Part shown: positions 2-12,919 of the stretch, piece by piece
Numbering within the stretch: the stretch's first letter is position 1
How the letters are laid out: the number at the start of each line of letters is the position of its first letter
DNA from: Boseongicola sp. SB0675_bin_26
GTDB lineage: Bacteria > Pseudomonadota > Alphaproteobacteria > Rhodobacterales > Rhodobacteraceae
Direction of reading: 5' to 3'
DNA length: 12,919 nucleotides
Assembly (NCBI GenBank): GCA_009843725.1
Contig: VYCX01000556.1
Location: 1-12,919, forward strand
Translations under genes and position numbers: made by a program
Notes under the pieces: model-generated
Told to the model about the DNA's origin: nothing
Database searches by the model: none
Seen by the model: only the letters and a program-made list of their open reading frames with translations

Positions 2-1531
2 ATCTGGGACCTGCCAATGCCGAGCGCGGAATTTGAAACCGCAGTTCACGGGTTCGAATGGCTCGACGACCTGACGGCCGTATGCGATTTTCATACCAAC
101 CGTCTCGCCCAGGACTGGACGCATGGCTGGATCCGGCGCTTCGGCCTTGGTTCCGGTTCCGGATGGACGCCCGAGCTGACGGGCCGGCGCGTGCTGCGCT
201 GGATCAACCACGCGGACCAGCTGCTGGCCGGTCAGGGGCGCGCGAAGAGCGATGCGTTCCGCCGGTCGCTCTCGGCCCAGACAATCTTCCTTTCGCGCCG
301 CTGGAGGACGGCGCGTCCCGGCCTGGCCCGGTTCGAGGCTTTGGCGGGACTGATTCAGGCGAGCGCAGCGCTTTCGGGAATGGACAGCCACATGCGCAGG
401 GCGAGCCGGGCGCTCGCGAGGGAATGCAGGTCCTGCATTGACAGCCATGGATCGATTGCGTCGCGCAATCCTGAAGAGCTTCTCGAAATCTTCTTCCTGC
501 TCAACTGGGCTGCCGCCGCTCTCCAGCTTGCCGGACGGCCACCCGAGGATGCACACAGGGCGGCCGTCACCGCGGTGGCGCCTGTCCTGCGGTCGCTTCG
601 TCACGTGGATGGAAGCCTGGCGCGGTTTCATGGGGGAGGCCCTGGAACCGTCGACAAGCTTGACTGGGCCTTGGCCAATGCTGGCGCCAAGGGTGCCGCC
701 GCCCGGCGGCAGCAGCTGACCATGGGCTACGCGCGGGTGGCTCACGGTCGCACAACGATGATTGTCGATGTCGCGCCGCCAGCGGCGACCGCCAATGCGC
801 ATGCGTCGACGCTGGCGTTCGAGTTGACGAGCGGCCTGCACCCCTTGGTCGTCAATTGCGGTTCGGGCGAGGGCCTTGGCAAAAGCTGGCGAATGGTCGC
901 GAGGACGACGTCCTCTCACTCGACCCTGGACGTCGAGGGCTACTCCTCGTCTCGCTTCGCCGCCTCCAGTGGCGCAATTGCCGACAGCGCGGGAAGGATC
1001 GTGCACGCGCCGGCCAACGTTACGCTGGAACGCAACGACTACAATGACGGCACCTGCATAGTCGCCGGCCATGATGGCTATCGGGGCAGATGCGGCCTCA
1101 ATCATTGGCGCAGGCTTCAGGTCGATCCGCAGGGCAGCAAGGTCAATGGCGAAGACGTCCTTCTTGCGGCTTCCGACGACGGGCGGAAGAGGTTTGATGC
1201 ACTGCTCAGCGCGCAGCGGCTCGAGGGCGTGCCCTTCAACATTCGGTTCCATCTGCATCCGGACGTCGAAGTGGAGGCGGATGAAGAGGGTCGCGACGTT
1301 TCGATGTGGCTCAAGAACGGGGAGACCTGGAGATTTCGTTGCCGGGGCGAGGTGGAGCTGTCGCTTGAGCCAAGCGACTTTCTGGAGAGCACATCGTCAT
1401 CGTCGCGCGCGACAATTCAGATTGTTCTCTCCGGCTTCGCCATGGAGTATTCGACACGTGTCGGCTGGATTCTCGCAAAGGCCAGGCGAAGCGACGGGGT
1501 GATCCCGGAGGACGAACTTGTGCTGGAATGA
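2..1531 (+). CDS. Heparinase II/III family protein (5'-partial)
   Basis: The reading frame is open back to base 2, with in-frame codons before the first Met at 17, so the true start lies upstream and the N-terminus is missing. The C-terminal half has the look of the heparinase II/III-like domain: a GYARVAHGRTTMIVD strand, then a segment starting NAHAS...AFELTSG, a VVNCGSG stretch, and TTSSHSTL around nt 905-925, the family's usual Ser/His-containing motif. The family contains polysaccharide lyases acting on uronic-acid polymers. Members next to purH in Rhodobacterales are uncharacterised, so the real substrate is unknown. The gene ends 18 nt before purH on the same strand, which suggests co-transcription. 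Whether it has a signal peptide cannot be judged. The family call is firm; lyase activity is not shown. Confidence 0.88.
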   Translation: MWDLPMPSAEFETAVHGFEWLDDLTAVCDFHTNRLAQDWTHGWIRRFGLGSGSGWTPELTGRRVLRWINHADQLLAGQGRAKSDAFRRSLSAQTIFLSRRWRTARPGLARFEALAGLIQASAALSGMDSHMRRASRALARECRSCIDSHGSIASRNPEELLEIFFLLNWAAAALQLAGRPPEDAHRAAVTAVAPVLRSLRHVDGSLARFHGGGPGTVDKLDWALANAGAKGAAARRQQLTMGYARVAHGRTTMIVDVAPPAATANAHASTLAFELTSGLHPLVVNCGSGEGLGKSWRMVARTTSSHSTLDVEGYSSSRFAASSGAIADSAGRIVHAPANVTLERNDYNDGTCIVAGHDGYRGRCGLNHWRRLQVDPQGSKVNGEDVLLAASDDGRKRFDALLSAQRLEGVPFNIRFHLHPDVEVEADEEGRDVSMWLKNGETWRFRCRGEVELSLEPSDFLESTSSSSRATIQIVLSGFAMEYSTRVGWILAKARRSDGVIPEDELVLE

Positions 1532-1549
1532 ACGAATGGACCGCTACGA

Positions 1550-3139
1550 ATGACTGACCTTCAGCCGGTGCGTCGCGCCTTGCTCTCCGTATCGGACAAG
1601 ACGGACCTCGTCGAGTTCGCCACCGCGCTTTCGAGCCGGGGCATCGAGTTGATTTCCACTGGCGGCACCTCCGCAGCGCTTCGCGGGTCAGGGCTGGAAG
1701 TGGCCGATGTCGCGGAAGTCACAGGATTTCCGGAGATGATGGACGGCAGGGTCAAGACGCTCCACCCGGCGGTGCACGGCGGGCTTCTGGCGTTGCGGAG
1801 CGACGCGGCGCATCTGAGCGCGATGTCAGAGCACGGGATCGGAATGATCGACTTGCTGGTCGTGAATCTCTACCCGTTCGAGGCCAGCGTCGCGAGCGGG
1901 GCCGATCATGGCACGACGATCGAATGCATCGACGTTGGCGGACCCGCGATGATCCGGGCCGCCGCGAAGAACCACAAGTTCGTGAACGTTGTGGTGGACG
2001 CCTCCGACTACCAGGACCTGCTGGATGAACTGCAAGCCAACGAAGGCCAGACCTCCCTTGACTTTCGCAGGCGTCTGGCGCTCACGGCGTTTTCAAGGAC
2101 CGCCGCCTACGATGCCGCGATTTCGGCCTGGATGGCTGACACCTTGGGCGAAACGTCGCCACGCCGTCGGGTCTTCGCGGGCACGTTGACGCAGCGGCTA
2201 CGCTACGGCGAGAATCCTCATCAGGCGGCAACCTTCTACAAGGACGGCTCCGATTGCCCCGGAATTGCGACTGCCGTTCAGCACCAGGGCAGCGCGCTTT
2301 CCTACAACAACATCAATGATGCCGATGCCGCCTTTCGACTGGTCGCCGAGTTCGACCCGGCCGACGGGCCCGCCGTCGCCATCATCAAGCATGCGAACCC
2401 CAGCGGCGTGGCACGTGGGGAGAGTTGCGAACAGGCGTTCGGTCGTGCGTTCGACTGCGACCGGATGAGCGCATTCGGCGGCATCGTGGCATTGAACGGC
2501 ACGCTTGACGGGGGGACGGCGCGCGCAATTGCCGAAATTTTTGCCGAAGTCGTGATTGCGCCGGAGGCGACGGACGATGCCAAGGAGGTCCTTGCCGCAA
2601 AGCGGAACCTGCGATTGCTGACGACCGGCGGGCTTCCCGGACCTTCTGCATCCCGAGTGTCCGTTCGGCAGGTCTCGGGCGGATGGCTGGTCCAGGACGA
2701 GGACAGCGGCGCCTGCACGGCGGCGGACCTGAAAGTCGTGACCCGTGTTGCGCCGACGCAGGAGCAGATTGACGACCTTCTCTTTGCGTGGCGTGTCGCC
2801 AAGCACGTGAAGTCCAATGCGATCGTCTATGCCCGCGACCTCGGCACTGTCGGCATCGGGGCTGGCCAGATGAGCCGGGTCGACAGTTCAACGATTGCCG
2901 CGCTGAAAGCAGGTCGCATGGCTCATGATCTCGGCCGCACGGAGTCGATGGCCAATGGTTCGGTCGTGGCGTCCGACGCGTTCTTTCCGTTTCCGGACGG
3001 TCTTCTTGCCGCCGCCGAAGCCGGCGCGAAGGCCGTGATCCAGCCAGGCGGGTCCAAGCGGGACGATGCCGTGATCGAGGCGGCCGACGCGGCCGGGCTT
3101 GCCATGGTGTTTTCCGGCATGAGGCATTTCAGGCATTGA
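1550..3139 (+). CDS. purH: Bifunctional AICAR formyltransferase / IMP cyclohydrolase
   Basis: Catalyses the last two steps of purine synthesis in the cytoplasm: formylation of AICAR by 10-formyl-tetrahydrofolate, then ring closure to IMP. The 529 residues match the usual PurH length. The N-terminal MGS-like cyclohydrolase domain (about 1-150) shows [13 protein letters not shown] (36-40), the [17 protein letters not shown] block (57-73) and NLYPFE. The formyltransferase domain shows LRYGENPHQ (217-225), [13 protein letters not shown], the catalytic Lys-His pair in IIKHANPSG (K280, H281), DRMSAFGG, and the C-terminal blocks DAFFPFPDG and [12 protein letters not shown] 1550 is the start that gives the canonical N-terminus. 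Its stop TGA (3137-3139) overlaps the lspA start as TGATG. Nothing is missing or odd. Confidence 0.98.
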
Positions 3140-3600
3140 TGCAGGTTCTCGCGCCCCTCTTTCGCACGGCGGTCCTGACCGCCTTGGCCGACCAGTTGAC
3201 GAAACACTTCGTGGTCAACGCCATGAACCTCAGGGAACTGGGTGCGATCCCTGTCTTGCCGCCCTACATCCAGTTCCGGATGGCCTGGAACGAGGGGGTG
3301 AATTTCGGCATCCCGCTCGCCGGCAAGTGGGTGCTGGTCGGGCTGGCGATTGCAATATGTGGCGCGATCCTTTGGTGGATGGTGCGCGATCGCCCCGGAA
3401 CCCTGGTGCAGGTGTCAGCGGGCCTGGTCATCGGCGGCGCCATCGGCAACGTGATTGACCGACTGGTCTACGGGGCGGTGGCGGACTTCCTGAACATGTC
3501 GTGTTGCGGCTGGCGGAATCCGTGGTCGTTCAACATCGCGGACATCGCCATCTTTGTTGGCGCGTTCGGCCTGATCACGCTCAGCGCCGGCCGGCGATGA
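3139..3600 (+). CDS. lspA: Lipoprotein signal peptidase (signal peptidase II)
   Basis: Inner-membrane aspartyl protease that removes the signal peptide from diacylglyceryl-modified prolipoproteins. From ATG 3139 the protein is 153 aa, within the normal LspA range. Conserved elements in order are ADQLTK (17-22), NEGVNFG (51-57), GNVIDRL (103-109), VADF with catalytic D116, and FNIAD with catalytic D135. Four hydrophobic stretches are consistent with the four-helix topology. The ATG overlaps the purH stop (TGATG), which implies translational coupling; a TTG one codon earlier (3136) is possible but less likely. The next gene downstream encodes a lipoprotein that would itself be an LspA substrate. 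Confidence 0.97.
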   Translation: MQVLAPLFRTAVLTALADQLTKHFVVNAMNLRELGAIPVLPPYIQFRMAWNEGVNFGIPLAGKWVLVGLAIAICGAILWWMVRDRPGTLVQVSAGLVIGGAIGNVIDRLVYGAVADFLNMSCCGWRNPWSFNIADIAIFVGAFGLITLSAGRR

Positions 3601-3665
3601 ACAGGACAGGCTTTCCACCGAATTGATTCACGGGTAGAACCCGACAAACGGTTTCGGAGGCGTTC

Positions 3666-4181
3666 ATGCTGCGTCGGTTGCTGCTCCTTTGCCTGATTCC
3701 GGCAATTGCCGCCTGCGCGGACGGCAATCCGGGTCTGATGAACATCGGCCGGGACCGCGCTCGCGGTCCTGACGAATTCGGGATCATTCCTGCGAAACCC
3801 TTGGAAGTGCCCGAGGACATCGCCGCCCTGCCCGTGCCAACGCCGGGCGGCACGAACCTGACGGACCCGACGCCGGAGCGGGATGTCGCGGCGGCCCTTG
3901 GCGGCGACATCGGGGCGCTGGCGCGAGGCTCAACAGACGGTGCGTTCGTGGCCCATGCCACGCGGCACGGCGTCGACAGCAACATCCGTGTCGAACTTGC
4001 TGCCGCCGATCTGGAATTTCGTCGCGATAATCAGGGTCGTGTCCTGGAAAGGCTTTTCGACGTGAATGTCTATTTCCGGGCCTACGAGGAAATGGCGCTT
4101 GACCAGCATGCGGAGCTGGCGCGACTTCGCCGCCTTGGCATTCGGACCTCGGCAGCCCCGCCCAAGCCGGTCGCGGAGTGA
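3666..4181 (+). CDS. DUF3035 domain lipoprotein
   Basis: A 171-aa protein with an N-terminal lipoprotein signal: Arg-Arg at 3-4, a hydrophobic leucine run, and the lipobox IAAC ending at Cys17. The mature protein should therefore be lipid-anchored, probably in the outer membrane. Past the Cys comes the pattern typical of DUF3035, PDEFGIIPAKPLEVP (35-49), then a Pro-rich LPVPTPGGTN segment. Some alphaproteobacterial members of this family are annotated as BamF, an accessory lipoprotein of the outer-membrane beta-barrel assembly machine; that role is only an inference here. A GGAGG ribosome site at 3656-3660, 5 nt before ATG 3666, fixes the start. It lies 65 nt after lspA and is the last conserved gene of the + strand operon. 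In related genomes I expect M16 peptidase genes next, but they are absent here. Confidence 0.88.
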   Translation: MLRRLLLLCLIPAIAACADGNPGLMNIGRDRARGPDEFGIIPAKPLEVPEDIAALPVPTPGGTNLTDPTPERDVAAALGGDIGALARGSTDGAFVAHATRHGVDSNIRVELAAADLEFRRDNQGRVLERLFDVNVYFRAYEEMALDQHAELARLRRLGIRTSAAPPKPVAE

Positions 4182-4898: not shown

Positions 4899-6023
4899 TC
4901 ATACCGTGGCCCACTCCCGGGTTCGGGCGGATGACTGAATGGCCTCGACGGTCTTTTGAATCTCGTAGGCTTCGCGGAAATCGGGCATGCAGGATCCGCG
5001 CTCGAAATGAGCCTGGACGAGTTCGGCAACCTCGATGACCTTTAGGTCATTGAAACCCAGATGATGCCCCGGAGCAGGGCAGAATCTGCCATAAGGAGGG
5101 TGGGCGGGGCCCGCTTCTATACGTTGGTATCCCGCCCTTCGGCCGCAGCCCGAATAGACCAGCAATTCGTTCATGTGCTCCTGGGTGAAGGCGATGGCAC
5201 CCTTGGTGCCCGTCACCTCGAAGGACAAATCCAGCGTGCGCCCCGTCGCGGCCCAGTTTGCTTCGATGCTGCCCGTGACGCCGCTGGCAAAGCGCAGGAT
5301 CGCGTGGGTCACGTCATCAACCACGACCGGGCGGCGCTCGGCGGAACCCGCCACGACAGGTCTGTCGAGGAATATGGTCCGTGCGTGACCGTTCACTTCG
5401 GCGACCGGGCCAAGAAGGTGTCGGGCCAAAGAAAGGATGTGGCTGCCAATGTCGGTCAGCGCCCCGCCGCCTTGAGGATCGGTGCGGAAGGAATGCGGCG
5501 CGTCCGGGCTGGCCATGTAGTTTTCCGCATGGCGACCGCGAAAGCCGGTAATCTCTCCGATCTCGTCGGAGTAGATCATCTGGCGTGCGAGCCCGATCAT
5601 CGGGTTGCGCAGGAAATTGAACCCGACGGAGGTGACGACATCGGCAGCCTCGGCGGCCTTCGTCATCTTCAGGGCAGATACTGCGGTCGTCGACAGGGGC
5701 TTTTCGCAATAGACCGTCTTGCCGGCGGCGATTGCGGCCAGCGCCATGGGCTCGTGCAAATCGTTCGGGGTGGCAATCGCGACTATGTCAACCGAGTCGT
5801 CATGCACCATCGCTTGCCAATCCGACGTCGCCCGCGCAAATCCCAATGCCGCCGCCCCCGCCGCCGCAATTCCTTCGGTTGCGTCCGCCAGGATCGACTT
5901 GACGGGATCGGAGGGCAGATCGAAGAGACCTGCGACAGCGCCAAAGGCGTTGGCGTGGCAGCGGCCCATGAAGCCGGATCCGATCAGGCCAATGCCAACG
6001 CTCTGTTTCCTTTCGATCCTCAT
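4899..6023 (-). CDS. Gfo/Idh/MocA family NAD(P)-dependent oxidoreductase
   Basis: A 374-aa protein of the glucose-fructose oxidoreductase / inositol dehydrogenase / MocA family. These cytoplasmic enzymes oxidise or reduce sugar and cyclitol hydroxyls with NAD(P). The N-terminal Rossmann fold shows GSGFMG (15-20), IATPNDLH (83-90) and the family hallmark CEKPL (106-110), whose Lys is part of the active site. The C-terminal domain has GGGALTDIGSH (185-195), with the Asp/His typical of the catalytic region, and an ending like DFREAYEIQKTVEAI. The start ATG at 6023 lies 7 nt after the permease stop, with an AGG-containing site just upstream, so it should be the last gene of the transporter operon. 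It is clearly divergent from the inositol dehydrogenase-like gene at 12435. The substrate cannot be told; position suggests it acts on the imported compound. Confidence 0.93.
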   Translation of the reverse strand: MRIERKQSVGIGLIGSGFMGRCHANAFGAVAGLFDLPSDPVKSILADATEGIAAAGAAALGFARATSDWQAMVHDDSVDIVAIATPNDLHEPMALAAIAAGKTVYCEKPLSTTAVSALKMTKAAEAADVVTSVGFNFLRNPMIGLARQMIYSDEIGEITGFRGRHAENYMASPDAPHSFRTDPQGGGALTDIGSHILSLARHLLGPVAEVNGHARTIFLDRPVVAGSAERRPVVVDDVTHAILRFASGVTGSIEANWAATGRTLDLSFEVTGTKGAIAFTQEHMNELLVYSGCGRRAGYQRIEAGPAHPPYGRFCPAPGHHLGFNDLKVIEVAELVQAHFERGSCMPDFREAYEIQKTVEAIQSSARTREWATV

Positions 6024-6030
6024 TTCCGAC

Positions 6031-6966
6031 CTACTTTTGCGATTTCAGGTTGTCGAGCCAGACGGCGACGATGATGACCATGCCGATCAGCACCTGCTGA
6101 TAGAACGAGGAAATCCCGAGAATGTTCAGCCCGTTGGTAATCATGGCCATAATCAGCGCCCCGATCAGCGCGGTCAGGACAATGCCGCGTCCGCCGACAA
6201 AGCTGACGCCACCGATGATCACGGCCGCAATGGCCTGCAGCTCGATGCCTTGCGCAACGCTTGGCGGCGTAGCTGCAAGGCGCCCGGTCATGACCACGGC
6301 CGCAAGTGCTGCCAGAAAACCACTCAGCATGTAGATCTTTATCTTCTGCCGATCGACCGGAATGCCTTCCAGTCGGGCGACCCGCTCGTCGCCGCCAATC
6401 GCGTAGACGTGGCGGCCGAAGACTGAGGTGTGCAGCATCACGGTGACGACAAGGTAGGTAACGACAACGAAGTAGAGCGGGATCGGAAGCCCGAGGAACT
6501 TGGCGTTGCCGATGTAGAGGAAGAATGGCACCAGCACCTGGTAGGACACGCCCTTGGTGATGACCAATGCCAAGCCACGCGCAATTCCCAACATTCCCAG
6601 TGTCGCGATGAAGGGCGGGATCTTGCCGTGCGTGATGACGATGCCATTGACAAGGCCGGCGAGCGTGCCGACTGCCAGGCCCGCCAGGGTGGCGATGAGC
6701 GGATCCACATCAACTTGTATCAGCGCGCCGATCACAACAGCAGACAGGGCCAGAACCGATCCCACTGACAGGTCGATGCCGCCCGAAATGATGACCACCG
6801 CCTGGCCGGCAGCAAGGATCGCTACGATTGACACCTGCTTTGAGAGGTTGGTCATGTTGCCGACGGTCATGAAGAACGGCGACAGGAACGAGAGGACGAT
6901 GGCCAGCAAAACGGCGACGAGAAGGATCCAGACGAGCGGCTGAGACCTGATTCGCGTGAATTGCAT
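6031..6966 (-). CDS. ABC sugar transporter permease (RbsC/CUT2 type)
   Basis: A 311-aa integral membrane protein made of hydrophobic segments from about residue 10 to 305, the usual size for RbsC-type permeases. It carries the family hallmark SGGIDLSVGS (61-70), a short cytoplasmic loop with YAIGGDERVARLEGI, and the C-terminal block AVIIGGVSFVGGRG. It would form the homodimeric inner-membrane channel of a CUT2 importer for monosaccharides or polyols. ATG 6966 lies 3 nt after the ATPase stop codon, so the two are almost certainly translated from the same mRNA. The oxidoreductase follows 7 nt later. The protein looks complete. Confidence 0.95.
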   Translation of the reverse strand: MQFTRIRSQPLVWILLVAVLLAIVLSFLSPFFMTVGNMTNLSKQVSIVAILAAGQAVVIISGGIDLSVGSVLALSAVVIGALIQVDVDPLIATLAGLAVGTLAGLVNGIVITHGKIPPFIATLGMLGIARGLALVITKGVSYQVLVPFFLYIGNAKFLGLPIPLYFVVVTYLVVTVMLHTSVFGRHVYAIGGDERVARLEGIPVDRQKIKIYMLSGFLAALAAVVMTGRLAATPPSVAQGIELQAIAAVIIGGVSFVGGRGIVLTALIGALIMAMITNGLNILGISSFYQQVLIGMVIIVAVWLDNLKSQK

Positions 6967-6969
6967 GTC

Positions 6970-7740
6970 TCAGTCCCCTGCTGCAGATGTGCGGCGCTCC
7001 ACAGCAAGACCGGAGATGATCATCGAAACGATTTCGTCCTGGGTGAATTCCTTCGTCGGACCCGTCACCACGTTCTTGCCGCCGTGCAGGATCGTGATCC
7101 GGTCGGTGAAATTGAAGACCTCGTGAATGTCGTGGCTGATCCAGATAATGCCGATACCCTGCTTCTTCAGTTCCACGGTCAGTTCCATGACCATTTTGCT
7201 TTCTTCCATGCCCAAGGCCGCGGTCGGTTCGTCCATGATCAGGATCTTCGTGTCGAAATGCACTGCGCGGCTGATCGAGATCGCCTGGCGCTGACCGCCC
7301 GACATGCTGTCGACCTCGACGTCGAGCGACTGGATGCGGATGTTCAGGCGGCCGAGTGCCTTGGTCGCTTCGGCTGCCATGGCCTTCTTGCGAAGAAACC
7401 CCCATTTGTGCAGTTCGCGCCCCATGTAGAGGTTCGCCGGGGCGTCCAGATTGCCACAGAGCGCCAGCTCTTGGTAGATCGTCTCGATTCCATAGGCGCG
7501 AGCATCGTTCGGGCCGCTGATTTGCGCCTTGCGTCCTTCGACAAAGATAGCGCCCTCACTGGCTGTCTCGGCTCCCGAAAGGATCTTGATCAACGTAGAC
7601 TTCCCGGCGCCATTGTGTCCCAATACGCCGAGAACCTCGCCTGGATAGAGCTCAAGCTGCGCGTCGGTCAGTGCCTGCAGGCCGCCAAAGTGCTTTGATA
7701 TGTGCCGCATTTCGACAAGTGGGGTAGGGTCCGGCATCAT
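6970..7740 (-). CDS. ABC sugar transporter ATP-binding protein, single NBD
   Basis: A 256-aa cytoplasmic ATPase that powers the CUT2-type importer. Motifs in order: Walker A GHNGAGKST (41-49), Q-loop around TIYQELAL (87-94), signature MSGGQRQ (146-152), Walker B ILIMDEP (166-172), and the switch His in ISHD (H203). It has one nucleotide-binding domain only, unlike the roughly 500-aa tandem-domain RbsA/XylG/AraG proteins usual for this importer class. The FrcA-type fructose importer ATPase of rhizobia is a precedent, and such proteins act as homodimers. The start is ATG 7740 or the adjacent ATG 7737. The upstream ribosome site is weak, and a strong hairpin separates the gene from the binding-protein gene, so expression is probably lower than that of the binding protein. 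Confidence 0.95.
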   Translation of the reverse strand: MMPDPTPLVEMRHISKHFGGLQALTDAQLELYPGEVLGVLGHNGAGKSTLIKILSGAETASEGAIFVEGRKAQISGPNDARAYGIETIYQELALCGNLDAPANLYMGRELHKWGFLRKKAMAAEATKALGRLNIRIQSLDVEVDSMSGGQRQAISISRAVHFDTKILIMDEPTAALGMEESKMVMELTVELKKQGIGIIWISHDIHEVFNFTDRITILHGGKNVVTGPTKEFTQDEIVSMIISGLAVERRTSAAGD

Positions 7741-7819: not shown

Positions 7820-8782
7820 CTATTCCAGTACGATGCCGCGACCGGCAAGGTACTCGTCGGTCACGTCCTCGGCCACCATAATCGAAGATTCGACAACGAT
7901 CCAGTCGTCCAGCTCTTCGCCCTTCGTGACATGGCGATAGGCGGCCATCACGGCTTCGTAGCCCACCAGATCGGTGTTGCCGTCGATCGTAGCGTTCAGC
8001 TCGCCGGCCCTCAGGGCAGCCAACGCCGACGGGATCGCGTCGTCGCCGACCACGATGATGTCATCAAGCTTGCCTGCGCCCTTGACGGCCTGAACCGCAC
8101 CCAGCGCCATCAAGTCATTGGAACCGACGATCGCATCGACCTCAGGGTGCGCCTGAAGGATGTCTTCTGATGCCTTCAGGCCCTTTTCCTGGTCCCAGTC
8201 GGCAGCAATCGATGCCACCACCTCAATCCCGTCATTGGCGTTGAACACTTCCATCATGCCATTCAGCCGAAGCTCGGCAGTCGAACTGCCGCGAAAGCCT
8301 TCGAGAATTGCGACTTTGCCTTTGCCACCCAGCTGATCGACGACCCATTGTGCCATGCCGGCAAACGAGGTTTTCTCATCCAGGCCTACAAAGGTCTCAA
8401 CCTTGGCCGGGCCGTCATCAACACGCGTGTCGGCGGTAATCACTGGGATCCCCGCGGCGTTGGCCTCCATCACTTTCGGGATCAATGCAGTCCCGTTCAT
8501 CGGGACCAGCACGATCGCGTCGTGACCCTTGACGATCTCGGTTTCAACCACGGCGATCTGGCCCTCGATGTCGCCGTTGAACTCGGCTGAAACATAGGAC
8601 AGCTCGATGCCCAGCTCGTCGGCTGCGCGCTTGGCCCCTTCGCCCATGCGCCAGTAGTAGGGGTTGTTCATGTCCTTGACGATGAAGGCCATGCTGATGT
8701 CCTCGGCGAATGTCGCCGTGGTCATAGATCCGGCCATGGCCATGGCGCCGATCGCCAGGCCCAGTTTCGACTTGATTTTCAT
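7820..8782 (-). CDS. Periplasmic sugar-binding protein (RbsB type) of ABC importer
   Basis: A 320-aa secreted receptor that delivers a sugar or polyol to the permease. Residues 1-26 form a signal peptide (MKIKSK, hydrophobic Ala/Met-rich core, likely cleavage after TFA before ED). The mature chain is a type I periplasmic-binding fold: NNPYYW (39-44), as in the aromatic ligand-stacking site of RbsB, TADTRVD with the Arg equivalent to a ribose-contacting Arg, FRGSSTAELR, GSNDLMALGA, and VVGDDAIPSA with the Asp near the pocket. Retention of these polar residues suggests a pentose, hexose or cyclitol ligand. The start at 8782 is set by the strong AAGGAGGG site (8792-8799). The frame is open upstream to a TTG at 8959, but that extension would bury the signal peptide and is rejected. 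First gene of the transporter set, downstream of the regulator. Confidence 0.95.
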   Translation of the reverse strand: MKIKSKLGLAIGAMAMAGSMTTATFAEDISMAFIVKDMNNPYYWRMGEGAKRAADELGIELSYVSAEFNGDIEGQIAVVETEIVKGHDAIVLVPMNGTALIPKVMEANAAGIPVITADTRVDDGPAKVETFVGLDEKTSFAGMAQWVVDQLGGKGKVAILEGFRGSSTAELRLNGMMEVFNANDGIEVVASIAADWDQEKGLKASEDILQAHPEVDAIVGSNDLMALGAVQAVKGAGKLDDIIVVGDDAIPSALAALRAGELNATIDGNTDLVGYEAVMAAYRHVTKGEELDDWIVVESSIMVAEDVTDEYLAGRGIVLE

Positions 8783-8833: not shown

Positions 8834-8955
8834 AAAATTGCGTTCCGGCAGAGCTTGCTGCCCGCCCGCGACACGGGGAGCGTGCAACAGGCCGACCGGG
8901 CGACACGAGAGCGAAGATGTCCAAAATGAGTCCTTTGGCGGGAAGCCGTTGGGAC

Positions 8956-10659
8956 TCAATAGTGTCCATGCGCCCGCATCAGCGCATCAATGCGGTTTTG
9001 CGCATTGCCAAGCGCAACGGCAGGCTTCGCATCGCCCCGCAGCATCAGGTGGATCTCGTCGCCGAGAATTCCCAGAATGTCGCTGAATTCCGGGATCGGC
9101 GGGCGCGGCCAGATCTGCAGCTCGCCGCGGCGTTCCATGCCGTCGATTTCGCTGATAAGCGGGCTTTTGGCCTGTACCTCGGGGTCGGCGCTGGTCGAAA
9201 ACCGCGGGCTGGACAGATTTCCATTCTGGACATACCATTTCAGCATCTCGGGCTTGGTCAGGTATTCCATCACCTTCCACGACGCTTTCTTGCGTTCGCT
9301 GCTTAGGCCCTCCGGCATCGCTAGCGAGAAGCCTCCGATCGGAGAGACCGTGTGCGCGCCAGGCGCGTGCGGATGCGGCGCATAGTGAACCTTGCCGTGG
9401 GCTGGTGACGCGTCGTTCAATTCAAAGGCGGCCGCTCGGACACTCCAGCCATATGTCATTGCCGCGTGGCCTTCCGAGAAAATTCGGATGCGGCGATCCC
9501 AGTTGCAGGTCAGGCTGTCCTTGTGGGACAGACCGAGCAATTCCAGCAGGAACTCAGCGGCTTGTCGCGCAGGATCGGTATCGAGTTGCGGGCGATGGTT
9601 CTCGCCTGAAATCTCGGTGAGGTCGAATTCAACGCCAATTGGCTTGAGATTGATGATCGGCTGACCGAAATCCGCCAGTGTCTGGACGAATGTGTGGGCG
9701 ACCGGCGTGCCTCGGCCGTAGTTCATCACGATTCCGGACATGTTGAAGCCCGAGCGGTGCAGGACGCGTGCAGCAAACAGCACGTCGTCAGTGGTGCGCG
9801 GGATCGAAAGGCCGGCGTCGGCAAACAGGTCCGACCGGCAGAACAGCAGCTCCGCCGTCGGCTGGATCGGCAGGCCGAACTGCTTGTTGCACCAGAAAGA
9901 TCCGCGAAAGGCGGCATTGTGAAAGTCGGACGGGTTGTAGCGTTCCAGACGCATTATCTCGTCCAAGGGCTCGATCACACCTGCCTCGGCCAACTGACCG
10001 ACCCAGGGAAGGTCAATTGCAATCAGGTCGAATTCCGGAACCGGTTGCTTTGCACTGTCCATGATCTTGCTGTGCAGATCGTCCAGCGGCAGGTTGGTGA
10101 TCTCGATTTTCGTGCCGCAGAGCTCCTCCAGAATGGATGAGAACTCGTTCAGTGTCTTGAACGTCGGATCAATGGGGCCGAGGATCCGGAAGGTCCGGTC
10201 ATAGCCGACGCCGGTACGCATGGCACTGGGATAGGGCAGGATCCTTGAGGCCATGTAGTATCCGCCGAAGTAGAAGTCGCCGATCTCGCCGTCCCCGGTA
10301 TTGAATCCAAAGGTATTTCCGACCATGGCCTTGAGCTGCATGGCGAAACTCTCGAACTCTTCGATCAGCTTGCGCGTGGGATGCAGGGAGAAGGACTTTC
10401 CGGTCTTTGATTTCGGCCGCTTGTGCAGCAACCTCTGGTCGATCAGCTCTGAAATCCGCCGCATCGCCGTGCCATAGGGGACGTTGGCCGCCATTGCCGC
10501 CGAGGTGGTGGTCATCAGCTTGCCTTCCAGGTGCCGCCGCATGGCGTAGGAGATTATGTTCCAGCGCGCATCAGTGGTTGACAGTCCCGTCCGCGTTTCG
10601 GAAATCTCGCGATTGGCGTCCACGAAATTCAGGATTCGCAGGAGTTCTTCGCGTGTCAC
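8956..10659 (-). CDS. One-component regulator: winged HTH fused to solute-binding domain
   Basis: A 567-aa protein with two parts. Residues 1-115 look like a MarR-type winged helix-turn-helix: TTSAAMAANVPYGTAMRRIS (51-70) supplies the HTH, ELIDQRLLHKRP the following helix and turn, and KSKTGKSFSLHPTRK the wing. After a linker (about 115-155), residues 156-560 resemble a family-1 extracellular solute-binding protein: FDLIAIDLPWVGQLAEAGVIEPLDEI (210-235), FGLPIQPTAELLFCRSDLFADAGL (261-284), a TTDDVLFAARVL block and SPIGGFSLAMPEG. There is no signal peptide or membrane segment, so it should be cytoplasmic and bind DNA, with the solute-binding domain as ligand sensor. The start is GTG 10659, with GGAG 7 nt upstream. 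It lies divergent to the GMC gene and 173 bp before the binding-protein gene, so it probably regulates both arms. Domain calls rest on motif recognition, not a search. Confidence 0.85.
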   Translation of the reverse strand: MTREELLRILNFVDANREISETRTGLSTTDARWNIISYAMRRHLEGKLMTTTSAAMAANVPYGTAMRRISELIDQRLLHKRPKSKTGKSFSLHPTRKLIEEFESFAMQLKAMVGNTFGFNTGDGEIGDFYFGGYYMASRILPYPSAMRTGVGYDRTFRILGPIDPTFKTLNEFSSILEELCGTKIEITNLPLDDLHSKIMDSAKQPVPEFDLIAIDLPWVGQLAEAGVIEPLDEIMRLERYNPSDFHNAAFRGSFWCNKQFGLPIQPTAELLFCRSDLFADAGLSIPRTTDDVLFAARVLHRSGFNMSGIVMNYGRGTPVAHTFVQTLADFGQPIINLKPIGVEFDLTEISGENHRPQLDTDPARQAAEFLLELLGLSHKDSLTCNWDRRIRIFSEGHAAMTYGWSVRAAAFELNDASPAHGKVHYAPHPHAPGAHTVSPIGGFSLAMPEGLSSERKKASWKVMEYLTKPEMLKWYVQNGNLSSPRFSTSADPEVQAKSPLISEIDGMERRGELQIWPRPPIPEFSDILGILGDEIHLMLRGDAKPAVALGNAQNRIDALMRAHGHY

Positions 10660-10688: not shown

Positions 10689-10704
10689 GTCCATATCTGA
10701 TAAT
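10689..10704. promoter_or_regulatory. Putative operator, copy 1
   Basis: GTCCATATCTGATAAT. It matches a second copy 49 bp away at 14 of 16 positions. With its left flank it also forms an imperfect palindrome, ATTGTC-N7-GATAAT, as expected for a dimeric wHTH. It overlaps the last base of the predicted -10 of the regulator promoter and covers the expected transcription start, a position that suits repression. The candidate binder is the HTH-SBP regulator encoded next to it (inference). Confidence 0.5.
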
Positions 10705-10737: not shown

Positions 10738-10753
10738 GTCCAAATCTGACAAT
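10738..10753. promoter_or_regulatory. Putative operator, copy 2
   Basis: GTCCAAATCTGACAAT, differing from copy 1 only at positions 6 and 13. It lies just upstream of the predicted -35 of the regulator promoter and 73 bp before the GMC start codon, so one bound protein could affect both divergent genes. Confidence 0.5.
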
Positions 10754-10825: not shown

Positions 10826-12421
10826 ATGACGACCGGAGACCATGATTTTGCGGTTGTCGGCGCCGGGTCCGCAGGTTGTGCCGTCGCGGGGCGGCTTGCC
10901 GAAGCAGGATTTTCGGTGCTGCTGCTCGAGGCCGGTGGGCGCGACCGAAATCCTCTCATTCATATTCCTCTTGGATATTCGCTGCTTTATGACAATCCGG
11001 CGGTGAACTGGCGTTACGAAAGCCAGCCCGAGCCGCACTTGATGGGGCGCCGCCTGTTTCAGCCTCGCGGCAAGGTGTTGGGCGGCACCGGGGCGATCAA
11101 CGGCATGATCTACATGCGCGGCCAGCCGGAGGACTTCGATGGCTGGGCCGAGGCGGGATGCACTGGCTGGGGGTGGGACGACGTTCTGCCCTACTTCAAG
11201 TCCTGCGAGGATCAGGAGCGCGGCACCGATGCGTATCACGGCACCGGCGGGCCGGTCGCCGTTTCCGACCTTCGCACGGAACACAAGCTGGGCGCCGCCT
11301 TTCTCGCCGCATCGGTCGCGCTTGGGGTGCCGCGCAACGATGACTTCAACGGGCCTCGGCAGGAGGGAACGGGCTATGTCCAGACAACGACCCGCAACGG
11401 GCGCCGCTGGAGCACCGCGACGGGATATCTCAAGGGACCCGCCAAACGAAACATCGACCTTCGGCTCCATGCGATGGTCGAGCGCATCGAGATCGAGGGA
11501 AGACGGGCGACCGGTGTGACCTGGACGGACCAGGGTGGGTCGAAGTCTGCGCGTGTTCGCCGCGAGGTAATTCTCTGCGGAGGCGCATTTAACTCGCCTC
11601 AACTACTGCAGATCTCGGGCATCGGCCCCGAGGCGCACCTGCAGGCGCACGGAGTCGAGACCTTGCACCATCTGCCGGGTGTGGGCGAGAACCTGCAGGA
11701 CCATTTCGGAATCGGTGCCGAATACCGCTCGACCGTGAATTCCACCGTCAATGATCTCTACAACAACAAGCTGAAGGGCGGCCTCCAGCTGCTGCGCTAC
11801 CTTCTGTTCCGCACCGGGCCGTTTTCTGACAACGGCAACTACTCCAACACCTTCATCCGTTCGGGACCGCAGATTGACCGGCCCGACATGATGGTGACGT
11901 TCATGGCCTGGTGCACGGATGAACGGCTGAAGCCGCATCCCTTCTCGGGCTTCACGATCCTGGCAGAGCACATGCGCCCGAATTCATGCGGACACGTTCG
12001 CATCACCGGTCCGCGCGCATGGGATCAGCCCGCCATTCAGTTCAACTTTCTCGCTGATGCGGCGGACCGGCGTGCCGCGCTTGCGGGCCTGAAATTCGGA
12101 CGCAAGATCGCTGCGACGGCGCCAATGGCCAATTGCATCGAAAGCGAGATCTCGCCAGGCGAGGACGTTCAGTCGGACGACGAACTGCTGAACCATTGCC
12201 GGGCATCGGGGCTGTCGCTGCTGCATCCCGTGGGCACCTGCAAGATGGGGATCGGTGAGGGTGCGGTTGTGGATCCGCGTCTTCGGATCCACGGCATTGA
12301 CGGGTTGCGTGTGGTGGATGCGTCGATCATGCCGCGCATCGTGACCGGCAACACCAATGCCGCGGCCATCATGATCGGCGAAAAGGGGGCCGCCCTGATC
12401 GTGGAAGATGCGCGAAGATAG
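10826..12421 (+). CDS. GMC family FAD-dependent oxidoreductase (choline dehydrogenase-like)
   Basis: A 531-aa flavoprotein of the glucose-methanol-choline family, which oxidises primary or secondary alcohols of sugars, polyols or choline-like compounds. Seen in order: the FAD-binding GAGSAG (12-17) followed by LLLEAGG, the GMC signature region GKVLGGTGAINGMIYMRG, the second signature GAFNSPQLLQISGIG, VGENLQDH, and the C-terminal active-site segment LLHPVGTCKMG with VVDASIMP and TGNTNAAAIMIGEKGA, which supply the catalytic His and Asn. Length is normal. There is no signal peptide, so it should be cytoplasmic. The frame is open upstream to 10556, overlapping the regulator, but ATG 10826 gives the usual short lead into the FAD motif; ATG 10781 is a less likely alternative. 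The gene lies 13 nt before the next oxidoreductase, with which it should be co-transcribed. Substrate unknown. Confidence 0.94.
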   Translation: MTTGDHDFAVVGAGSAGCAVAGRLAEAGFSVLLLEAGGRDRNPLIHIPLGYSLLYDNPAVNWRYESQPEPHLMGRRLFQPRGKVLGGTGAINGMIYMRGQPEDFDGWAEAGCTGWGWDDVLPYFKSCEDQERGTDAYHGTGGPVAVSDLRTEHKLGAAFLAASVALGVPRNDDFNGPRQEGTGYVQTTTRNGRRWSTATGYLKGPAKRNIDLRLHAMVERIEIEGRRATGVTWTDQGGSKSARVRREVILCGGAFNSPQLLQISGIGPEAHLQAHGVETLHHLPGVGENLQDHFGIGAEYRSTVNSTVNDLYNNKLKGGLQLLRYLLFRTGPFSDNGNYSNTFIRSGPQIDRPDMMVTFMAWCTDERLKPHPFSGFTILAEHMRPNSCGHVRITGPRAWDQPAIQFNFLADAADRRAALAGLKFGRKIAATAPMANCIESEISPGEDVQSDDELLNHCRASGLSLLHPVGTCKMGIGEGAVVDPRLRIHGIDGLRVVDASIMPRIVTGNTNAAAIMIGEKGAALIVEDARR

Positions 12422-12434
12422 AAGGGGAAACGCC

Positions 12435-12919
12435 ATGCTGGGAATTGCGTTGCTTGGAAGCGGCCGCATGGCCCACGTCTACGGGCCGAAGATCGGAGCC
12501 CATCCCGGCCTGCGGCTGATTTCGGTGTTCAACCCCAATCTGGCCTCTGCGGAACAGGCGGCGGCTCGATATGGCGGCACGGCCAGCGCCGATCTGGACG
12601 CAGTGCTGGCCGACCCTTCGGTCGATGCCGTGGTCATCGCCACGCCGACCAACACCCATGTCGAATATGTTGAGGCCTCGGCGAAGGCCGGCAGGCCGAT
12701 CTATTGCGAGAAGCCGCTGGACCATACGCTGGAGCGCGTGGACCGTGCAATGTCGTGCCTGAAGGCGTACCCGGTCCCGTTCATGCTGGGATTCAATCGC
12801 CGGTTCGACCCGGACAATGCCAGCTTGCAGCGCGCTGTTCGGGCGGGCGAGATCGGCAAAGTCAACATGCTGATGAGCTGGAGCCGCGAGCCCGCGCCGC
12901 CGCCGATCGACTATGTTCG
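12435..12919 (+). CDS. Inositol 2-dehydrogenase-like Gfo/Idh/MocA oxidoreductase (3'-partial)
   Basis: 161 codons are visible and the gene continues beyond the window. The N-terminal Rossmann motif reads GSGRMA (8-13), followed by IATPTNTH (68-75), the family hallmark CEKPL (91-95), GFNRRFDP (119-126) and SREPAPPPIDYV (150-161). The last two blocks are typical of the IolG-like branch, which oxidises myo-inositol or related cyclitols with NAD+ at C2; relatives act on other sugars, so the substrate is not settled. ATG 12435 has an AAGGGG ribosome site at 12422-12427 and lies 13 nt after the GMC stop, so both should share an mRNA. It is a different branch from the - strand family member at 4899-6023. 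Confidence 0.9.
   Translation, partial: MLGIALLGSGRMAHVYGPKIGAHPGLRLISVFNPNLASAEQAAARYGGTASADLDAVLADPSVDAVVIATPTNTHVEYVEASAKAGRPIYCEKPLDHTLERVDRAMSCLKAYPVPFMLGFNRRFDPDNASLQRAVRAGEIGKVNMLMSWSREPAPPPIDYV

Follow-up and report, generated by a model that had tools for sequence, protein, structure and literature searches.

A putative cytoplasmic regulator that joins a MarR-like winged helix-turn-helix to a family-1 solute-binding domain

LysR-type regulators combine a winged helix-turn-helix (HTH) with an effector domain of about 200 residues, which has a type-II periplasmic-binding fold and forms a family of its own, and the LacI family comprises sugar regulators whose sensor is homologous to the binding proteins of sugar transport. 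The MarR family consists of stand-alone regulators about 140 residues long, and fusions of a GntR-type HTH to family-1/8 domains occur in Firmicutes annotations. For DsvR of Vibrio cholerae, a regulator similar to SgrR, a predicted HTH followed by an SBP_bac5 domain and an operator with an 11-bp box are described (PMC13060122).

The regulator described here resembles SgrR of E. coli and DsvR in having an N-terminal HTH and a C-terminal solute-binding domain in one non-exported protein; however, its sensor belongs to family 1, the sugar type, whereas theirs belongs to family 5, and its neighboring genes differ. It shares a winged HTH and a type-II periplasmic-binding fold with the LysR-type proteins, but here the second part is a full MalE-type domain of about 410 residues and the LysR models of Pfam are unmatched. 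As in LacI, the sensor is homologous to sugar-transport binding proteins; LacI sensors have the type-I fold seen in RbsB, while this one is of the type-II, CUT1 kind and stands beside a CUT2 transporter. The likeness to MarR lies in the fold of the head and in the predicted binding of an inverted repeat, the difference in the 567-residue fusion, the separate clamshell sensor and the unmatched Pfam MarR models. The CUT1-type binding proteins themselves (5iai, 1eu8 and the relatives P0139-P0258) are exported, whereas the regulator is not and carries an HTH and a linker in addition. The clamshell thus belongs to family 1, and the Pfam scan led us to reject membership of the whole protein in the MarR, LysR, LacI or SgrR families, although by analogy it may work like SgrR and, more loosely, like LysR and LacI. 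In the literature searched, with subscription papers mostly outside its coverage, we found no description of such a regulator family.

Domain architecture and lack of an export signal

The stretch of DNA analyzed (the window) comprises 12,919 nucleotides of contig VYCX01000556.1 from Boseongicola sp. SB0675_bin_26. Within it, the regulator gene (8956..10659, minus strand) encodes 567 residues with a winged HTH and a family-1 solute-binding domain; it starts with GTG, which directly follows an in-frame TGA codon, and has GGAG shortly 5' of the start. The original prediction, made from the letters of the window, had placed a MarR-like HTH and a family-1 domain in one protein of this length, and the domain scan, fold matches and structural model agree.

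The head (residues 1-118; 10306..10659, minus strand) is a winged HTH with N- and C-terminal helices, modeled with a pLDDT of 94.9 and recovered in fold matches. The model and the alignment place a putative recognition helix at residues 62-74 (10438..10476, minus strand), in which T64 and R67 are found in 63 of 63 aligned members, and the model places the wing at residues 78-94 (10378..10428, minus strand). The fold is of MarR type and matches the MarR family members MepR, SlyA and MarR, with middling structure-match Z-scores of 7.8-9.6 and a best Foldseek E-value of 1.1e-3. The Pfam scan of the regulator found no HTH family at E<=1, the MarR models included; the MarR-like head that had been proposed is thus borne out in its winged-HTH fold and not in its match to the MarR models.

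The only Pfam matches at E<=1 were to PF01547 (81.8 bits against a cut-off of 26) and PF13416 (67.4 against 27), without SBP_bac_5, and the LysR HTH and substrate models, the LacI HTH and the Peripla_BP sensor were all unmatched at this threshold. Compared with the CUT1-type binding proteins 5iai (Arad_9887) and the trehalose/maltose-binding protein 1eu8, the clamshell (residues 155-567; 8959..10197, minus strand) shows a complete MalE-type (MalE/UgpB) two-lobe fold across the whole domain, which, with both scores above their cut-offs, upholds the claim of a full-length family-1 solute-binding domain. The two parts are joined by a linker defined by model and alignment (residues 117-154; 10198..10311, minus strand), in which model confidence falls below 50 at residues 120-138. 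It contains the motif D-[YF]-Y-F-G-G-S-Y at residues 128-135, with G132 in 62 of 63 members. The [YF]YFGGSY region is absent from an exported relative, the L088 protein described below, and this motif is a candidate for the element that couples the clamshell to the HTH.

Framework and presumed pocket positions of the clamshell are strongly conserved. Across the 63 aligned members D216 is found in 56, P218 in 61, W219 in 62, Q266 in 54, E270 and Y403 in 60 each and an aromatic residue at 444 in 62, and G442, G443, W517 and R519 are found in all. D216, Q266, E270, Y403, R519 and the aromatic 444 are common to the regulators and the exported L088 protein, in which the sole difference at all the positions just listed is Q at 219 (444 is W); at two further positions, 268 and 440, it has H and T where the regulator has T and P. 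In the alignment with 1eu8, we take positions 405, 444 and 519 to fall at two Trp residues that stack on trehalose in that protein and at one of its Arg residues. At position 405, 31 members have W, 20 have Y, 11 have A and one has H, and position 408 is R, L or I; because these two positions vary, the clades may differ in their preferred ligand.

As a proxy for export we took the best 12-residue mean hydropathy within the first 60 residues, with locus-derived sequences starting at the match, which is sometimes not the true start. The regulator scores 0.73 and 42 members score at most 1.77, while four ordinary family-1 binding proteins of its own genome and the RbsB-like protein, used as controls, score 1.82-2.3. 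Among 138 database relatives four reach at least 1.7; in three this comes from residues 49-60, which belong to the head, and the remaining one (P0064) is an unusual fusion whose hydrophobic start is unrelated. The low hydropathy and the stop codon just before the start agree with the original description of a protein without a signal peptide. By the same evidence the regulator lacks the export signal of a CUT1 transport binding protein, and it lacks the BPD_transp_1 neighbor of one as well, the permease in the window being of the BPD_transp_2 type.

Distribution of the regulators and their exported kin

A search with the full-length regulator gave 758 matches among 8000 candidates scored, a figure that does not imply the head in every match; the 120 matches listed are 523-597 residues long, mostly 567. 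When the head alone (residues 1-155) was the query, 238 of 599 candidates matched, and all 120 matches listed carry PF01547. Looking for other proteins with this domain pair, as the original prediction had proposed, thus yielded relatives, with CUT2 genes as their usual neighbors. The organism's own genome (4.14 Mb) contains two further members, both truncated at contig ends, and 93-97% identical proteins are found in Boseongicola/Silicimonas records. With a threshold of E<=1e-40 and no more than four candidates scored per genome, 50 of 295 same-family genomes contained members. In a class-wide sample the head was matched in 11 of 289 genomes, six with the full architecture and five as weaker matches, and named loci also come from Vibrio penaeicida, Grimontia hollisae and other Gammaproteobacteria.

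Locus L088 (8746-10095) encodes a 449-residue protein, 40% identical to regulator residues 146-567, which has a signal-peptide-like start and no head. Its gene adjoins two BPD_transp_1 permeases and a TOBE-type ATPase; among the exported kin, CUT1 permeases as neighbors were checked for this locus alone. The L088 protein found 252 matches among 7996 candidates, and the 120 matches listed (P0139-P0258, about 450 residues, median 449) have a hydrophobic N-terminus in 109 cases, a head in none and a match to the clamshell profile at 1e-20 in all 120. In a quick tree, 13 sampled exported proteins form one clade (support 100) within the group that contains the regulators (99), with two ordinary family-1 binding proteins outside the group of regulators and exported proteins; the base of the quick trees gives no order as to which of the two came first.

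Some further proteins were seen alongside these. In loci L075, L076, L077 and L078 it is the C-terminal part that resembles the regulator head, and L077 and L078 include a response-regulator receiver. Loci L067, L068 and L082-L085 form a diverged regulator clade without the common repeat described below, and have 3-hydroxyisobutyrate-dehydrogenase-like and threonine-dehydrogenase-like genes as neighbors.

Gene neighborhood and operator-like repeat

Downstream of the regulator and on the same (minus) strand lie the genes of a CUT2 transporter, comprising an RbsB-like periplasmic binding protein with a Peripla_BP_4 domain (7820..8782, its start picked by the signal-peptide-like beginning), which also matches LacI-family models, an ATPase of 256 residues with a single ABC domain (6970..7740) and a BPD_transp_2 permease (6031..6966). 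Many relatives have an ATPase of about 500 residues and two permeases in place of the single 256-residue ATPase and one permease of the window. The sensor domain is of CUT1 type and these neighbors are CUT2, so sensor and adjoining transporter are of different types; a derivation of the sensor from the local transporter's own binding protein was rejected, as that neighbor is RbsB-like and has a different fold. A Gfo/Idh/MocA oxidoreductase follows (4899..6023, minus strand), for which the nearest NCBIfam model is levoglucosan dehydrogenase, matched far below its cut-off (306 against 650 bits). A GMC oxidoreductase (10826..12421, plus strand, start codon picked by eye) diverges from the regulator. 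Next comes the 5' part of an inositol-2-dehydrogenase-like gene, which runs past the edge of the window (12408..12917, plus strand) and whose product is 97% identical over 170 residues to the L089 protein, which passes TIGR04380 (359 against 355 bits). Among substrate-indicating models, that of choline dehydrogenase was matched under its cut-off (552 against 605 bits), and that of inositol dehydrogenase alone was passed, by the L089 and L070 neighbors. At the other end of the window (17-4181), a heparinase II/III-like gene, purH (AICARFT/IMPCHase), a signal peptidase II gene and a DUF3035 gene stand in a row.

The linkage to CUT2 genes recurs among relatives. We examined 79 named loci drawn from the best 80 of 546, so that clades I and II dominate; the loci are related by descent, and their counts are not independent trials. 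Flanking sequence of 8 kb on either side is available for 52 of the named loci, and every one of these encodes a CUT2 binding protein and permease within that distance; over all 79 the figures are 74 and 75, respectively; about 6% would be expected from the density of Peripla_BP_4 proteins in 19 genomes of the same family. Counts of CUT2 ATPases took in other ABC ATPases and are left aside. Of a further 35 unnamed loci across the family, among them the exported L088 and the partial paralogues L080 and L081, 22 contain a CUT2 binding protein and 28 a permease, and L063 and L081 adjoin Peripla_BP_6 proteins instead. Clade I neighbors are GMC, inositol-dehydrogenase-like and Gfo/Idh genes, and clade II neighbors encode an SDR protein, a DddP-like M24 protein, E1/E2 dehydrogenase subunits, an aldehyde dehydrogenase and ThuA. 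The clade II clusters (L136, L141, L062, L073 and similar), with a CUT2 transporter, the E1/E2 set, aldehyde dehydrogenase and partly ThuA, constitute a catabolic pathway of no recognized kind; their M24 protein scores far below the DddP cut-off. Neighbor clusters c5, c6 and c9 were considered as a CUT1 transporter and rejected, the one representative scanned of each being a DddP-like M24 protein, a transketolase-like protein (E1 beta) and an E1 alpha dehydrogenase subunit.

Two putative operators precede the regulator: O1 (TGTCAGATTTGGAC; 10738..10751, minus strand), 79 bp before its start, and O2 (TATCAGATATGGAC; 10689..10702, minus strand), 49 bp from O1. With one mismatch allowed, 0.01 occurrences of the pattern derived from them would be expected; this and the other explicit patterns were composed after the sites had been seen. 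De novo searches gave clade I the motif AAATGTCAGATTTGGAC (upstream regions of 44 genes, 35 after removal of near-duplicates), with a log-likelihood gain of 427 against 67-68 in shuffles, and clade IIa the motif AAATATCCATATTGGAT (23 non-redundant regions of 24), with a gain of 232 against 50-51, two distinct shuffles serving as controls in each case. Clade IIa proteins are about 40% identical to those of clade I and have other neighbor genes, and the site is present in 22 of the 23 regions, L138 being the one without. The two motifs have the same half-sites, an inverted repeat ATCCA-N3-TGGAT of 13 bp, which is the family form; in the window's clade it reads TRTCAG-N3-TGGAC. Copies also precede the transporter genes in clade I, and where the GMC gene is turned round (L099, L130) a copy lies at its start.

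We scored a symmetric clade IIa model against 4856 control stretches of 350 bp and called sites at p<=0.01, with 42 of 44 clade I loci scorable and with the clade I copy standing for the regulator region of L053 and L054. In its training clade the model found 15 of 18 and 14 of 18. Applied to regions outside its training set, it found sites ahead of the CUT2 binding protein in 28 of 42 loci of clade I and in 8 of 13 of clade IIb; ahead of the regulator it did so in 7 of 16 clade IIb loci, 6 of 42 clade I loci and the single region of L066, as well as in both shared regulator/transporter regions of the small-genome loci L070 and L071. The low clade I counts at the regulator, and at the GMC regions (5 of 42), are due to the TCAG half of the clade I site. 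At the same threshold none was called in the six clade V regulator regions, the four regulators of L133-L135 and L056 (binding protein, one of four) or the paralogue fragment of the organism itself (0 of 1). A fixed pattern gave, per kb of sequence upstream of regulator and transporter genes versus elsewhere, 2.6 versus 0.11 in clade I, 2.9 versus 0.044 in clade IIa, 2.4 versus 0.067 in clade IIb and 0 versus 0.077 in clade V, and its reverse occurred 0 times in those upstream regions and 14 times elsewhere (these and other tested loci).

The loose form RTCMRNNNTGGAY has 130 matches on both strands of the organism's own genome against 56 for the reversed pattern, and is therefore not specific genome-wide. 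The exact clade I form TRTCAGATTTGGAY occurs in 21 of 295 genomes (its reverse once), namely in 5 of the 8 that have a clade I regulator and in 16 of the 287 that lack one (Fisher p 5e-5), the latter being about what chance would give. In each of the five, one copy precedes the start of the regulator by 77-79 bp, and genome G450 has a further copy elsewhere. A third site, O3 (GTCCAAAATGAGT; 8919..8931, plus strand), lies between the regulator stop and the RbsB-like gene; of its two half-sites one is poor, and chance alone would put its pattern in the window 0.49 times. Among 13 co-directional loci, the window included, 12 have CATTTTGGAYAT 18-31 bp past the regulator stop, and 2.2 Mb of loci contain 27 copies in total, these included except the window's; what speaks for O3 as a putative operator is this conserved placement. 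The promoter scan recognized no sigma-70-like promoter next to the repeat sites, an Rfam scan gave no useful match, and the de novo search ahead of the binding-protein gene of clade IIb yielded no operator, only a GC-rich motif that we took for a coding stretch.

Proposed working of the regulator and alternative readings

The original prediction of a cytoplasmic transcription factor with a family-1 sensor gains from the pocket framework common to the exported relative, the linkage to sugar uptake and the conserved repeat; the repeat, the CUT2 linkage, the exported kin and the linker motif were no part of it. Both domains, the lack of an export signal, the conserved repeat and the gene linkage are observed, and with high confidence we propose that the protein is a cytoplasmic one-component regulator, which would control the local CUT2 importer and dehydrogenase genes through the repeat and the clamshell. 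The winged HTH would bind the 13-bp inverted repeat, presumably as a dimer, at putative operators in the region that separates the regulator from the divergent GMC oxidoreductase and before the sugar-transporter genes. The clamshell, as kin of CUT1 binding proteins, most likely has as its cytoplasmic ligand the sugar or polyol taken up, or a compound formed early from it; clamshell closure would be transmitted through the YFGGSY-type linker and alter DNA binding, which in turn would switch the importer and dehydrogenase genes. That the regulator itself binds the repeat, its dimeric state, its class of ligand and its allostery are our reading of the sequences. It is probably a local, autoregulated and ligand-responsive regulator of a sugar or polyol cluster. 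We lean slightly toward ligand-relieved repression over activation, by analogy with MarR-type heads, and, because an inositol-dehydrogenase-like gene adjoins, our guess for the ligand is an inositol-like polyol.

Three other readings were weighed against this proposal. The sources label named relatives as extracellular solute-binding or sugar-transport substrate-binding proteins, and the domain does belong to family 1, as would be the case for an ordinary periplasmic transport protein whose N-terminus had been called too long. Against this stand the in-frame stop directly before the start, a head kept at 25-75% identity across clades, the absence of a hydrophobic N-terminus from the regulator and 134 of 138 relatives, the exported kin (best 120 of 252), which have that N-terminus in 109 cases and never the head, and the adjoining CUT2 transporter with its own RbsB-like binding protein. 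We reject a miscalled start on the comparison of hydropathy, stop codon, relatives and exported kin, and regard it as very improbable.

It is also unlikely, if less remotely so, that the clamshell is vestigial or structural and that the regulator answers a protein partner, such as a transporter subunit, and not a small molecule: the variation near the pocket at 405 (W/Y/A) and 408 (R/L) would suit such a role, and the ligand is a prediction, but the fold is complete and its framework and presumed pocket residues are strongly conserved and mostly common to the exported relative. Between these two in probability, and improbable in our view, lies the reading that the repeat is the operator of another regulator and that the 567-residue protein acts otherwise, for instance by protein contact. 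The repeat is missing in clade V, and its pairing with the protein comes from comparison; it nevertheless travels with the regulator gene through clades with different neighbors, keeps its place 77-79 bp before the start in five genomes and, in its exact clade I form, is rare (5 of 8 against 16 of 287 genomes), as expected for a local regulator.

Returning to the one-component regulator, we hold a wider generalization with less assurance, though we think it somewhat favored: that the family arose when a MarR-like head and a conserved YFGGSY-type hinge were fused to a CUT1-type binding protein lacking its export signal, that its clades then diversified to control different catabolic clusters with nearly the same operator, that what a CUT2 importer brings in is sensed inside the cell by a reused CUT1 receptor unrelated to that importer, and that a natural series of exported and cytoplasmic forms exists. 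Since the sources that name these genes call them transporter binding proteins, a regulator family would be hidden in marine alphaproteobacterial genomes. The predicted operator would make regulons of uncharacterized sugar and polyol pathways readable from sequence. Because exported relatives share the domain, the conversion of a transport receptor into a gene switch becomes testable, and, if the generalization is true, exported receptors and cytoplasmic sensors provide a natural series for swaps; family-1 clamshells, whose ligands are in many cases known, could be grafted into biosensors. For these marine bacteria, the type of protein that catches sugar outside the cell, fitted with a DNA-binding head, most likely serves as an intracellular nutrient switch for the adjoining uptake and breakdown genes.
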